From an uncultured Bacteroides sp. (GTDB lineage: Bacteria; Bacteroidota; Bacteroidia; Bacteroidales; Bacteroidaceae), in the NCBI GenBank assembly GCA_947074195.1, contig CAMTOS010000002.1, forward strand, positions 20,091 to 84,090: DNA of 64,000 bases, in the 5' to 3' direction. The notes beneath the pieces were generated by a model that saw only the letters and a list, made by a program, of their open reading frames with translations, had not been told where the DNA came from and searched no databases. How positions within the stretch are numbered: the stretch's first letter is position 1; every line of letters begins with the position of its first letter. Both the position numbers and the translations under genes were made by a program. This document shows positions 37,375-52,653 of this stretch, piece after piece.

Positions 37375-37791
37375 ATGAAAATTAGTGCAAGAAATCAATT
37401 CGCCGGAAAAATTATTTCTGTTGTTGAAGGTGCAGTGAGTAGCGCAGTTATTATTGACGTAGATGGTGTTCATATTTACGGAACAATTTCAAAAGCTGCT
37501 GTAGAAGATCTTAAATTGGAAGTTGGTGGTGAGGCTATCGCTATCATTAAAGCTACAGAGGTGATGATCGCTTTGGGTGATTTCATCATCAGCGCACGCA
37601 ATAAATTCAGCGGTAAGATTACCTCTGTTACAGAAGGTGCAGTAAACTCGGTAGTTACTTTGTCTTTTGGACAGGATAAAGTTATCACTTCAATCATCTC
37701 TAACAATGCTGTGAAAGAGCTTGGTTTGAAAGAAGGTAAAGAAGCTGTTGCTGTAGTTAAAGCAACTTCAGTAATGTTTGGTGTAGAATAA
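37375..37791 (+). CDS. Free-standing tandem-Mop (TOBE) molybdate-binding protein
   Basis: A 138-aa molbindin made of two consecutive Mop domains. Each starts ISARN(Q/K)F(A/S)GKI and ends in AxxKAT(E/S)VM (second unit from about residue 72). Mop domains bind molybdate or tungstate at oligomer interfaces. Its place beside nifX-like and modBC suggests molybdenum storage or sensing for nitrogenase. The same di-Mop unit normally forms the C-terminus of ModE, and the ModE-type protein and ModC in this window both lack it. It may therefore be the detached sensor module; this is inference. Confidence 0.92.
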   Translation: MKISARNQFAGKIISVVEGAVSSAVIIDVDGVHIYGTISKAAVEDLKLEVGGEAIAIIKATEVMIALGDFIISARNKFSGKITSVTEGAVNSVVTLSFGQDKVITSIISNNAVKELGLKEGKEAVAVVKATSVMFGVE

Positions 37792-38370: not shown

Positions 38371-39000
38371 TCATGTTAAACTTATAATACGGTCGCCCAT
38401 TTTCTCGGCTTCATCCTTATCATGTGTCACCATAATACTGATGCCATCCATAAACTTATGGGCTTTTAAAATTTCATCCTGAAGAGATTCTCTCATTTGC
38501 CAGTCGATTGATGAAAGAGGTTCGTCAAGAAGCAAAACAGAGGGTTTCGAGGCAAGTGCACGAGCCAGTGCAACACGTTGTTTCTGGCCACCCGATAATT
38601 TAATGGGGTGTACTTTCTCAAGATTGTGCAGTCCAAATATATCAATCAGATATTTCACCATCTCTTTATCTTTTTCTTTTTGAGCATAAGATATGTTTTG
38701 CTCCACATTCATATTGGGGAAGAGGGCAAAGTCCTGAAACATATAAGCTATATTCCTTTTCTGCGGAGGCATATTCTTTTTTGTTTTCGAATCGAACCAG
38801 ATATCTTCACCGTATTTCACCATTCCTTCATCGGGCATTACCAGTCCTGCCAGGATTCTTAGCAAAGTACTCTTTCCGCTTCCCGACTGTCCCACGAGCG
38901 AGATGAATTCTCCTTTTTTAAAATCATCTTTAAATATTAGAAATCGTTCTCCTTCGGTGGTCAGCATCTTTCTTTTGATATCGATATATAATGATTTCAT
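38371..39000 (-). CDS. modC: Molybdate ABC transporter ATPase, lacking the Mop domain
   Basis: ATP-binding subunit of the molybdate importer, only 209 aa. Walker A GQSGSGKST (about 37), the ABC signature LSGGQKQRVALARAL (about 114), Walker B LLLDEPLSSID and the switch His in MVTHDKDEAEKMGD are present. Typical ModC continues for about 140 residues with a regulatory TOBE/Mop domain, and this one stops right after the nucleotide-binding domain. Its ATG overlaps the modB stop by four bases (ATGA), which indicates coupling. Confidence 0.88.
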   Translation of the reverse strand: MKSLYIDIKRKMLTTEGERFLIFKDDFKKGEFISLVGQSGSGKSTLLRILAGLVMPDEGMVKYGEDIWFDSKTKKNMPPQKRNIAYMFQDFALFPNMNVEQNISYAQKEKDKEMVKYLIDIFGLHNLEKVHPIKLSGGQKQRVALARALASKPSVLLLDEPLSSIDWQMRESLQDEILKAHKFMDGISIMVTHDKDEAEKMGDRIISLT

Positions 39001-39671
39001 AATCTGCGGCGTTTGTTAATGCTATAAATAGTAGTAAGTACAATAAATGAAATGATGAAGAGCGTAAAAGCATATTTGTTGGCCTGATCGTAGTTGAGCG
39101 ACTGAACTTCGTCATACAGTGCGATAGACGCAACGCGGGTATCTCCCGGCATATTTCCGCCAACCATCAGCACAATACCAAATTCTCCGATGCAGTGTGC
39201 AAAGGTCATGGCAATAGCAGTGATTATATTTCCTTTTATATTGGGCAGTAATACCCTGAAAAAAGTCTCGACTTTTCCTTTACCCATGGTATAAGATGCT
39301 TCGCGGAAACTGGTAGGGAGTAGGGTTAACCCATTCTGGAGAGGTTGTATCATATATGGAAATGAGCAGATGATACTGGCAATCAAGACTCCGGTAAATG
39401 AAAACGCAAGACGAATATTGAATGTATTTTCCAGCCACGCACCGAAAAAGTTTTGCGGACTATAAGCCACAAGAATGTAAAAACCCAGTACGGTGGGCGG
39501 TAATACCATGGGCATACATATTATAGCTTCGATAGCACTTTTACCTCTGAACTTACTGAATGAGAGAAAATAGGCTATCGGCAGTCCGATAATTAATAAA
39601 ACCACAGTTGTCCAGAAGGCTAATCGTCCTGTGGTGAGTAGGGTTTGCAGAAATTCACTGTCGGCTATCAT
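38997..39671 (-). CDS. modB: Molybdate ABC transporter permease
   Basis: A 224-aa inner-membrane permease with about five helices. The ModB N-terminus (LLTTGRLAFWTTVVLLIIGLPIAYFL), PMVLPPTVLGFYIL and the EAA loop that docks the ATPase (FREASYTMGKGKVETFFRVLLPNIKGNI, shown here in part) are typical, as is CIGEFGIVLMVGGNMPGDTRVAS. The matching binding protein modA lies about 11 kb away on the same strand. A Mo-box-like sequence (39713-39735) sits about 42 bases upstream of its start. Confidence 0.93.
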   Translation of the reverse strand: MIADSEFLQTLLTTGRLAFWTTVVLLIIGLPIAYFLSFSKFRGKSAIEAIICMPMVLPPTVLGFYILVAYSPQNFFGAWLENTFNIRLAFSFTGVLIASIICSFPYMIQPLQNGLTLLPTSFREASYTMGKGKVETFFRVLLPNIKGNIITAIAMTFAHCIGEFGIVLMVGGNMPGDTRVASIALYDEVQSLNYDQANKYAFTLFIISFIVLTTIYSINKRRRL

Positions 39672-39712: not shown

Positions 39713-39735
39713 CGTTATTGCGATTTAAGATATCG
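39713..39735. promoter_or_regulatory. Mo-box-like operator before modBC
   Basis: CGTTAT-N11-ATATCG, one base off a perfect CGTTAT-N11-ATAACG inverted repeat. It lies in the nifV-modB gap (39672-39748), close to the modB start. The E. coli ModE site in front of modABCD has CGTTAT and ATAACG halves at nearly the same spacing. Confidence 0.6.
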
Positions 39736-49277: not shown

Positions 49278-50114
<837 letters not shown>

Positions 50115-50288: not shown

Positions 50289-50324
50289 ATAAAAAAAGTA
50301 TCCTACTGTTAAGGTAGGATACTT
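50289..50324 (-). terminator. Terminator of the porin-modA transcript
   Basis: Perfect 11-bp arms (50296-50306 and 50314-50324), followed on the minus strand by a run of T. It isolates nifH from modA. Confidence 0.85.
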
Positions 50325-50333
50325 CATACAATC

Positions 50334-50397: not shown

Positions 50398-51153
50398 TTA
50401 TTCACCTGCCGGAGATGCATAACCATATTTCTCCCACACCTCTTTTGTGGCCGGAGATAATACATAGTTCATAAACTTCTTCGCTTCAGGATTAGCGGCA
50501 TTCTGTTTAATAAGAATACAAGCCTGTTCAATTGGCGTATACATCGATTGTGGAATAACATATGCTTTACCTTTTTCAGTCATTTCGGGTGACAGAGCAA
50601 GCGATAAAGCAACAAAACCAACTTCTGCATTACCGGTATATGCAAACTGTGCAGCCTGAGAGATGTTATCGGCAAATACAATTTTTGGTTTTAATATTTC
50701 ATAAAGATCCTCTTTCTTCAGTAATTCAATCGATCTTTCGCCATAAGGTGCTGTTTCGGGTTTAGCTATCGAAATCTTTTTAACAGCAGGTTCAGTCAGA
50801 ACTGAAAGACCTTTATCAACGTCAACAGAAGTACTATACATCGCAAGTTTTCCGAAAGCATATGTTTTCATATCGCCATAAGTAACCCCTTTCTCTTTCA
50901 GTTTAAGTGGAAAGCTATTGTCTGCAGCCATAAAGAAATTGAAATTGGCTCCATTTAGAATCTGTTGTACCAGATTTCCCGAGGCACCGAATGTAATGTT
51001 TATCTTGCTACCGGGATTCACCTTTTCATAATCATTCTTTATTTCCTCAAGCACATATCTGAGATTGGCGGCAGCAGCCACATTCACTTTTTGTGCATTC
51101 ACTGTAAATACAACTGCAAAAAGCAAGCTGATTAAAAACATTGTTTTTTTCAT
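50398..51153 (-). CDS. modA: Molybdate-binding protein of the ABC importer
   Basis: Periplasmic molybdate/tungstate-binding protein of 251 aa with a signal peptide (MKKTMFLISLLFAVVFTVNAQ). The mature start VNVAAAANLRYVLEEI, FGASGNLVQQI, IAKPETAPYGERSIELL and VGFVALSLAL are ModA signatures; oxyanion-binding Ser in GASGN is kept. It is the partner of modB/modC, which lie 11 kb away. It is 36 bp downstream of a porin gene and read with it. Confidence 0.94.
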   Translation of the reverse strand: MKKTMFLISLLFAVVFTVNAQKVNVAAAANLRYVLEEIKNDYEKVNPGSKINITFGASGNLVQQILNGANFNFFMAADNSFPLKLKEKGVTYGDMKTYAFGKLAMYSTSVDVDKGLSVLTEPAVKKISIAKPETAPYGERSIELLKKEDLYEILKPKIVFADNISQAAQFAYTGNAEVGFVALSLALSPEMTEKGKAYVIPQSMYTPIEQACILIKQNAANPEAKKFMNYVLSPATKEVWEKYGYASPAGE

Positions 51154-51189: not shown

Positions 51190-52497
51190 TTATTTTTTAC
51201 TTAATAGCTGGAGTGCCACCGATGGTTTGATAGATATACTTGCATAAGCCCATTGCGGAGTTCTGATTTTCTCGCCCGCTACACCTTTAATGATTTTCAG
51301 ATTATCGTTTACAAAATAGATGCTATAGCCAGCTTCCAAAGATAGCCACGTATAAGCTTTATGTTTAAAAGTGAAATCGAGTTCGCTACCGATTTTCTTT
51401 CCGTCAAGATTAGAAACCTGAACCCCGGTTTTAAAGTAGTGATAATTGCCTTCGATAGTGGTACGTCCTTTCTTGAAATCGAGCAGGAATCCTCCGTATA
51501 AATCCTGCAAACCACGATTACCGGTATTGTTCCAGTAGTCCATCGATCCATTGAAGTCATGATGGCCTCTGAACAAATGGATGAAGCCACGCTGAATACC
51601 ATTATTCGGATTCTTATCTCCCGAGATATATTCATAACCGGCCGCAAGAGAGAATACCGGACAGAATTTATATGATCCATTTGCTACAAGATAATAACTT
51701 TTCAATTTATCAAGAGCACCTTTATAGATTACCTTACCTCTCTGATAATAAGCTTCAGCCATTAATTTTAAAGGGAATGATTGCGGGCTATAGCTTACAG
51801 TTCCCCCCATGGTATATTGTGTATAGTGATGATACGTTTTATAATTGTTTTTGCCTTCGGTAGCAATGGTATCCTGTGCAGAAAGAGCAACTCCGATGGC
51901 AGTAACAGTCACATCGTCGCCAAACTTCTTAGACATCCACAGCAATTCCATGAAACGATATTTCATTGCCGGCGTATAGTATGATTCATGAGAAATTGCA
52001 CTGTTGTTTGAATAGGAGAATCCTCCATCAATCATGAAATCATTATCCAGATTATACTTCAATAAAATCATGTCGAATGCATTCCCGGTATTACTCCAGT
52101 TGGCCGGACTAAATAGTTTACGATTATCGTATCTTAATGGCTGACGACCTACCCTGGCCACAAAACCCGGTAACATCAGAATTTCACCCCAGGCTTCATA
52201 TACTCCTATAGAGGGATTGTCAACATTGTGTCCTCCTTCGCCCCAGGTGCGTGCATCTTGCAGAGTGACTTGCATTTTAACCAGACTATTAGAAAAAGTA
52301 GCTCCGAATCTGGTTCTTTGCTGTACAAAGAAACCACTTCTGTTGTCCGATGTAATAGGCGAACCATATCCATCTCTGTATTCCGCCCTCGGGCGAATTT
52401 CCCCAAAAATTGTAAGATTCTGTGCCTGAGTAATTGCGCACATCAATAATGTTAATCCCAGAAATAATCCTCTTTTAAATACCCATTTTTTTTTCAT
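51190..52497 (-). CDS. Outer-membrane porin, alginate-export-like family, in the mod unit
   Basis: A 435-aa predicted beta-barrel with a signal peptide (GLFLGLTLLMCAITQAQ), starting NLTIFGEIRPRAEYRDGYGSP and rich in amphipathic strands. It belongs to the alginate-export-like porin group of Bacteroidota. It is first in a transcript with modA, and two Mo-box-like sites lie upstream, so it may admit molybdate through the outer membrane. That role is inferred from context. A close paralogue is at 55845-57146. Confidence 0.82.
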   Translation of the reverse strand: MKKKWVFKRGLFLGLTLLMCAITQAQNLTIFGEIRPRAEYRDGYGSPITSDNRSGFFVQQRTRFGATFSNSLVKMQVTLQDARTWGEGGHNVDNPSIGVYEAWGEILMLPGFVARVGRQPLRYDNRKLFSPANWSNTGNAFDMILLKYNLDNDFMIDGGFSYSNNSAISHESYYTPAMKYRFMELLWMSKKFGDDVTVTAIGVALSAQDTIATEGKNNYKTYHHYTQYTMGGTVSYSPQSFPLKLMAEAYYQRGKVIYKGALDKLKSYYLVANGSYKFCPVFSLAAGYEYISGDKNPNNGIQRGFIHLFRGHHDFNGSMDYWNNTGNRGLQDLYGGFLLDFKKGRTTIEGNYHYFKTGVQVSNLDGKKIGSELDFTFKHKAYTWLSLEAGYSIYFVNDNLKIIKGVAGEKIRTPQWAYASISIKPSVALQLLSKK

Positions 52498-52532: not shown

Positions 52533-52555
52533 CGTTATATTTAAAGAGGATAACG
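52533..52555. promoter_or_regulatory. Mo-box-like operator A (before porin-modA)
   Basis: CGTTAT-N11-ATAACG, perfectly symmetric halves, 36 bases before the porin ATG. Its right half overlaps the hairpin at 52547-52587. Confidence 0.65.
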
Positions 52556-52587
52556 GTTCTTTTAAAAAAAGGATAAACCGTTATCCT
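52547..52587 (-). terminator. Hairpin in the modE-porin gap
   Basis: Perfect 12-bp arms (52547-52558 and 52576-52587) with a 17-base loop. On the minus strand a T-run lies in the loop rather than after the stem, so it could be an attenuator, or simply reflect repeated CGTTAT/ATAACG half-sites. Confidence 0.45.
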
Positions 52588-52630
52588 CTATAAATTCTAT
52601 TGAAAACCTATTAAGCAAGCCTTTTAAAAA

Positions 52631-52653
52631 CGTTATTCTTTTTGCAGATAACG
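52631..52653. promoter_or_regulatory. Mo-box-like operator B
   Basis: CGTTAT-N11-ATAACG, again with perfect halves, immediately after the ModE-type gene stop and upstream of the porin. It is 98 bp from operator A. Confidence 0.65.

Follow-up and report, generated by a model that had tools for sequence, protein, structure and literature searches.

The crossing of the outer membrane by molybdate is usually left to general porins. Among outer-membrane channels, OprP and OprO (PF07396) are starvation-induced phosphate and polyphosphate porins that carry an arginine ladder and supply an ABC importer through its periplasmic binding protein, and the OprD/Occ channels are substrate-specific, have 18 strands and a basic ladder, and take mainly carboxylates. 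The alginate exporter AlgE of Pseudomonas aeruginosa has a ring of cationic residues, to which selection of the polyanion is attributed, and citrate has been seen bound to it (PMC4118822). An outer-membrane protein has been reported in molybdate acquisition in this species, as part of a ModA-IcmP system (PMC8602904). With regard to regulation, the published Mo-box consensus of Escherichia coli, ATCGNTATATA-N6-TATATANCGAT, contains CGNTAT-N12-ATANCG, and a lone ModE DNA-binding domain has been noted for Desulfovibrio (PMC545781). modABC is noted in a survey of nif clusters in Bacteroidetes, which makes no mention of a porin (PMC4356463). BT1414 of Bacteroides thetaiotaomicron, an "alginate export family protein", is reported to lie in the nrfAH operon and to be co-regulated with nrfAH (PMC10434189). 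No paper joining "alginate export family" and "molybdate" was found in a literature search that covered mainly freely accessible papers.

The locus considered here lies in a stretch of 64,000 nucleotides (the window) from an uncultured Bacteroides sp., within a nif region (Table 1). The protein of interest, porin P, matches PF13372 over residues 32–396 with 61.5 bits (cut-off 25.2); the Pfam scan lists this family alone, with no match to PF07396 or to the OprD family. A Sec-type signal was recognised by eye. The porin gene is followed after 36 bp by modA and preceded, across a gap of 169 bp, by a modE-like gene. Given the strong terminator after modA, nifH (at 50102) needs a start of its own, and porin and modA look like a two-gene unit. 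The original prediction had made the porin the first gene of a modA transcript with Mo-box-like sites upstream, and this was confirmed by the exact reading frame, the short intergenic gap, the terminator and two exact boxes. The modB and modC genes are split from modA by nif genes in this window, while in most relatives modA, modB and modC are contiguous.

Table 1. Positions in the 64,000-nt window of the porin-modA unit, its putative control sites and related genes
Feature	Position	Strand	Evidence or remark
di-Mop with two TOBE domains; may act as a separate molybdate sensor or store	37375..37791	+	PF03459, two stretches
modC, ATPase	38371..39000	-	PF00005; orthologues in mod operons
modB, inner-membrane permease	38997..39671	-	PF00528; orthologues in mod operons
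Relaxed Mo-box before modB, CGATAT-N11-ATAACG	39713..39735	-	third relaxed match in the window
Intrinsic terminator 3' of modA	50295..50325	-	12-pair stem and T run; RNA fold z = -7.4
modA, periplasmic molybdate-binding protein	50398..51153	-	TIGR01256, 198 bits (cut-off 62.5)
Porin P, AlgE-type 18-strand outer-membrane channel (predicted), 435 aa	51190..52497	-	PF13372, 8.5e-17; first gene of the Mo-box unit
Mo-box 1, CGTTAT-N11-ATAACG	52533..52555	-	exact; 35 bp upstream of the porin P start; conserved in L043 and L044
Mo-box 2, CGTTAT-N11-ATAACG	52631..52653	-	exact; conserved in L043, one change in L044
modE-like lone DNA-binding domain, 116 aa	52667..53017	-	TIGR00637, 1e-21, 76.8 bits (cut-off 98.5)
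Porin Q, paralogue of porin P, 59% identity	55845..57146	-	no Mo-box, no mod neighbour; WSDS replaces WSNT

The gap between modE and the porin holds the only two exact Mo-boxes of the window, where Markov copies of the same DNA lead one to expect 0.003, and the entire 3.5 Mb assembly contains three. Relaxing the motif to CGWTAT-N10-12-ATAWCG yields three sites in the window, where 0.07 would be expected from Markov copies; the additional one lies upstream of modBC. In two close relatives (L043 and L044) the half-sites stand out as conserved islands amid diverged DNA. A chance origin was ruled out by these expected counts together with shuffles of the upstream DNA. The notion that the boxes serve modE alone was ruled out by their position, downstream of modE and upstream of the porin, and by their mostly preceding the porin in relatives. 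No TOBE or molybdate-binding domain was found in the 116 residues of the ModE-like protein by Pfam scan, and the separately encoded di-Mop protein is a candidate for its molybdate-sensing partner. A 20-nt inverted repeat (95%, with a 17-nt loop; RNA fold z -7.1) at positions 52539–52595 overlaps Mo-box 1. A conserved leader RNA hairpin at this site was considered and dropped, and the repeat was excluded from the model, since it was not found in L043, L044, L048 or L055.

The third exact Mo-box of the genome is on another contig (G000 contig C51:19658–19680; L250:13659–13681). It precedes a run of genes for a lipoprotein, a TonB-dependent receptor, a CobW-type GTPase, an ATPase, TrmO, a FecCD-like permease and a further ATPase, with a PF01497 binding protein adjoining; the TrmO/TsaA-like gene (TIGR00104) of this operon is at L250:8346–8831. 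From its sequence, the run may encode TonB-dependent uptake of a Mo species under ModE control, with the single box possibly there by chance.

The arrangement was sought in 393 genomes of the order and in a species-genome collection; 178 loci were read, and removal of near-copies left 166 porins. modA is the same-strand neighbour of the porin in 28 non-redundant loci, typically in the order modE-porin-modA-modB-modC, with mop or TrmO genes inserted at times and a median porin-modA gap of 37.5 bp. The original prediction had held that a dedicated, co-regulated channel would be unusual; within Bacteroidales the porin-modA adjacency is a recurrent operon design. The same order is present in a cultured relative, Bacteroides graminisolvens DSM 19988 (L055). 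A relaxed Mo-box directly precedes the porin (within 300 bp of its start) in 21 of the 28 mod-linked cases, whereas shuffling the same upstream DNA gave a mean of 0.015; none was found before the 135 family porins that are not mod-linked or before 33 modA genes. In operons led by a TrmO-like gene, the box stands in front of that gene. The strict form precedes 9 of 38 mod-clade porins and 1 of 2187 other genes. Spacer sequences vary among relatives, which points to selection on the half-sites and not to recent descent alone. Because many relatives have the box, each time with another spacer, Mo-box control of the porin-modA unit, a part of the original prediction, is strongly supported by comparative sequence evidence.

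In half of the mod-linked loci (14/28) no nifH was found in the locus DNA examined, which ties the porin to Mo uptake and not to nitrogen fixation as such; an origin of the adjacency as a by-product of nif clusters was ruled out on the same grounds. Nor do all mod systems need the porin, as 16 of 27 modA loci in the order are without it (including G029, which reads modE-modA-modB-modC); universal need is refuted at the level of gene content. TrmO/TsaA-like genes (TIGR00104) also recur inside mod operons, between modE and the porin or modA (L131:8386–8904 and relatives). Beside modA in some relatives is a membrane protein that by eye looks like TauE/SafE (L232:666–1493, L236:596–1393, L249:660–1517); it replaces the porin or stands between porin and modA.

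Three members of the porin family are present in the genome: porin P, the unlinked duplicate porin Q, and a copy on contig C13 that directly follows nrfH, nrfA and cytochrome-assembly genes. Both a modA-adjacent P-type porin and a Q-type copy are present in two related genomes (L045 and L047); no modA was found in the L046 genome, which holds a Q-type copy. Like porin Q itself, its kin lack a Mo-box and mod neighbours. Porin Q may share the function of porin P or may have lost it. It is very improbable that porin P serves nitrogen fixation or another ModE-regulated process, such as the passage of nitrite or nitrate, in place of Mo entry. The surrounding nif region and the sister clades adjoining nitrite and nitrate reductases would fit such a role, but modA is the constant partner of the mod-linked porins whether or not nifH is found, and this genome has a separate NrfHA-linked paralogue.

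An AlphaFold model of porin P forms an 18-strand barrel (pLDDT 84). No solved structure was found by sequence search; by Foldseek the best solved match is AlgE (E 8e-18), followed by chitoporin and OprD/Occ channels. Taken with the PF13372 match, this likeness to AlgE could be read as the Pfam name suggests, with the porin exporting polysaccharide and its adjacency to modA being incidental. Such a reading is scarcely credible, given that adjacency and Mo-box have been retained across porins only about 30% identical, that the recognisable conserved neighbours are inorganic-anion systems, and that no polysaccharide genes lie next to porin P. Specifically, none of the alginate synthesis genes alg8, alg44, algK and algX is beside it in the window or was recognised among the conserved neighbours; in a genome-wide search for AlgX in this genome the control queries were silent. 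Gene order, together with the clade-by-clade agreement of neighbours described below, gives good support to a molybdate role for the porin.

In a FastTree phylogeny of 167 porins, a branch supported at 100 delimits a group of 40 rows that includes all the mod-linked porins, 29 in number, and the split of the mod clade is supported at 99 by IQ-TREE on 83 rows. Curated models identify NrfH, NrfA, PstA/B/C/S, WtpA and WtpC (tungstate), Hcp, NapA and NirK as recurrent neighbours in the sister groups, with NrfH, NrfA, PstC, WtpA, Hcp, NapA and NirK above an equivalog cut-off and several neighbour-protein hits below strict cut-offs; a further neighbour, protein cluster 19, is ResB-like. About a quarter of all porin rows have no recognised partner. 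In Flavobacteriia-type genomes, family porins adjoin NirK or NapA genes (L118:7581–9062, L116:11513–13852), which suggests nitrite and nitrate channels. The mod clade itself contains exceptions, with pst genes as neighbours in L063 and L151 and a PF03601 permease in L068, L127 and L128 (a family of putative sulfate exporters; the identity was tested in L127 and L128, and L068 was assigned by the same protein cluster). Four Q-type rows of the clade are without a clear partner. These exceptions suggest that the channel may be re-assigned between oxyanions, and that substrate may not be fixed by clade.

Arginines 35, 37, 61, 63 and 118 occur in 97–100% of alignment rows throughout the family, and R35, R37, R41, R61 and R63 would lie on the polar face, judging by strand alternation on the model. 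Following the nearly invariant W134, positions 135–137 are SNT for the mod clade, AQQ for the nitrite group and NQ[IVN] in most tungstate-linked and many phosphate-linked rows; the pst-linked L063 and L151 keep WSNT. Net charge is +11 for porin P, +6 on average for mod rows and -3 for nitrite-linked rows. The shared arginines, and the phosphate and PF03601 permease genes beside members of the same clade, two of which carry WSNT, lend something to the idea of a general small-anion channel for sulfate, phosphate, nitrite and molybdate alike, in which linkage to mod genes would be a matter of timing, raising permeability when Mo is scarce, and selectivity would reside entirely in ModA. We regard this as unlikely, as neighbour type agrees with clade much more closely than expected by chance (34 label changes on the tree; 94 after shuffling of the labels) and is accompanied by clade-specific residues for which a purely general channel would have no use.

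Gene order, boxes, terminator, recurrence, clade structure and predicted fold are all read from the sequences, and from these we infer that porin P is probably a Mo-repressed anion channel, the outer-membrane step of a high-affinity molybdate uptake system that feeds ModA. When the cell has ample molybdate, perhaps sensed by the Mop domains encoded apart, the ModE-like protein would bind the two Mo-boxes and repress porin and modA, and through the third, relaxed box modBC as well. Under molybdate shortage, such as synthesis of the neighbouring Mo-nitrogenase would bring, porin and ModA would rise together. MoO4(2-) would then diffuse into the periplasm through the AlgE-type barrel with its invariant arginines, there to be trapped by ModA for ModBC. 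Repression by ModE, molybdate passage, selectivity and a benefit at low Mo are all inferred; the TIGR00637 score of the ModE-like protein, below the cut-off, and its want of a molybdate-binding domain count against the model.

The dedicated molybdate channel originally predicted survives in part, in that gene order and clade-matched neighbours favour a molybdate role. The porin-less modA loci, the box-less and unlinked paralogue Q and the phosphate- or PF03601-linked members of the clade tell against the words "dedicated" and "essential". Frequent occurrence of the porin without mod genes had been expected to count against the prediction; it is indeed seen in the wider family, but many of these porins adjoin other oxyanion systems, which refines the claim. 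Porin P would then be one branch of a Bacteroidota anion-channel family whose branches pair with different oxyanion users, and the unusual dedicated channel is, on our best reading, better described as a branch of an unrecognised oxyanion-porin family. We lean slightly towards a wider proposal, in which the small Bacteroidota "alginate export" porins are inorganic-oxyanion channels. Individual branches would be tuned to molybdate, tungstate, phosphate, sulfate, nitrate or nitrite, each encoded together with the importer or periplasmic reductase for its anion. The mod branch would then provide the first molybdate porin under ModE control, with the motif after the tryptophan (WSNT, WAQQ, WNQx) as a candidate selectivity element. 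A ModE-controlled channel co-encoded with ModA would fill the outer-membrane gap for Bacteroidota, nitrogen fixers included, and would supply a role for a family that takes its annotation from alginate export. Since the sister channels are found with nitrite, nitrate, phosphate and tungstate systems, they are natural test cases for oxyanion discrimination by a barrel.

Porin P shares PF13372 and the predicted 18-strand fold with AlgE; however, the two are only about 12% identical, the neighbourhood of porin P is one of molybdate uptake and not of alginate synthesis, and AlgE exports a polymer, whereas porin P would import a small dianion. The structural matches to OpdO, OccK and OprD chains are a likeness of fold only. 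In its proposed physiology porin P resembles OprP and OprO, as a starvation-induced anion porin with arginines that would feed the binding protein of an ABC importer, but these belong to a different barrel family and pair phosphate with PhoB, rather than molybdate with ModE. BT1414 corresponds, by name and operon, to the Nrf-linked sister group and differs from porin P in having a nitrite partner and no molybdate genes. The geometry of the Mo-box is similar to that of E. coli, with CGTTAT-N11-ATAACG here and spacers of 10–12 in relatives; unlike E. coli ModE, the putative regulator here is a lone DNA-binding domain, with di-Mop encoded apart. The general idea of an outer-membrane partner in molybdate uptake has a precedent of another kind in ModA-IcmP, where IcmP is described as a metalloproteinase outer-membrane protein with a secreted ModA as partner, whereas here a barrel is encoded together with a periplasmic ModA.
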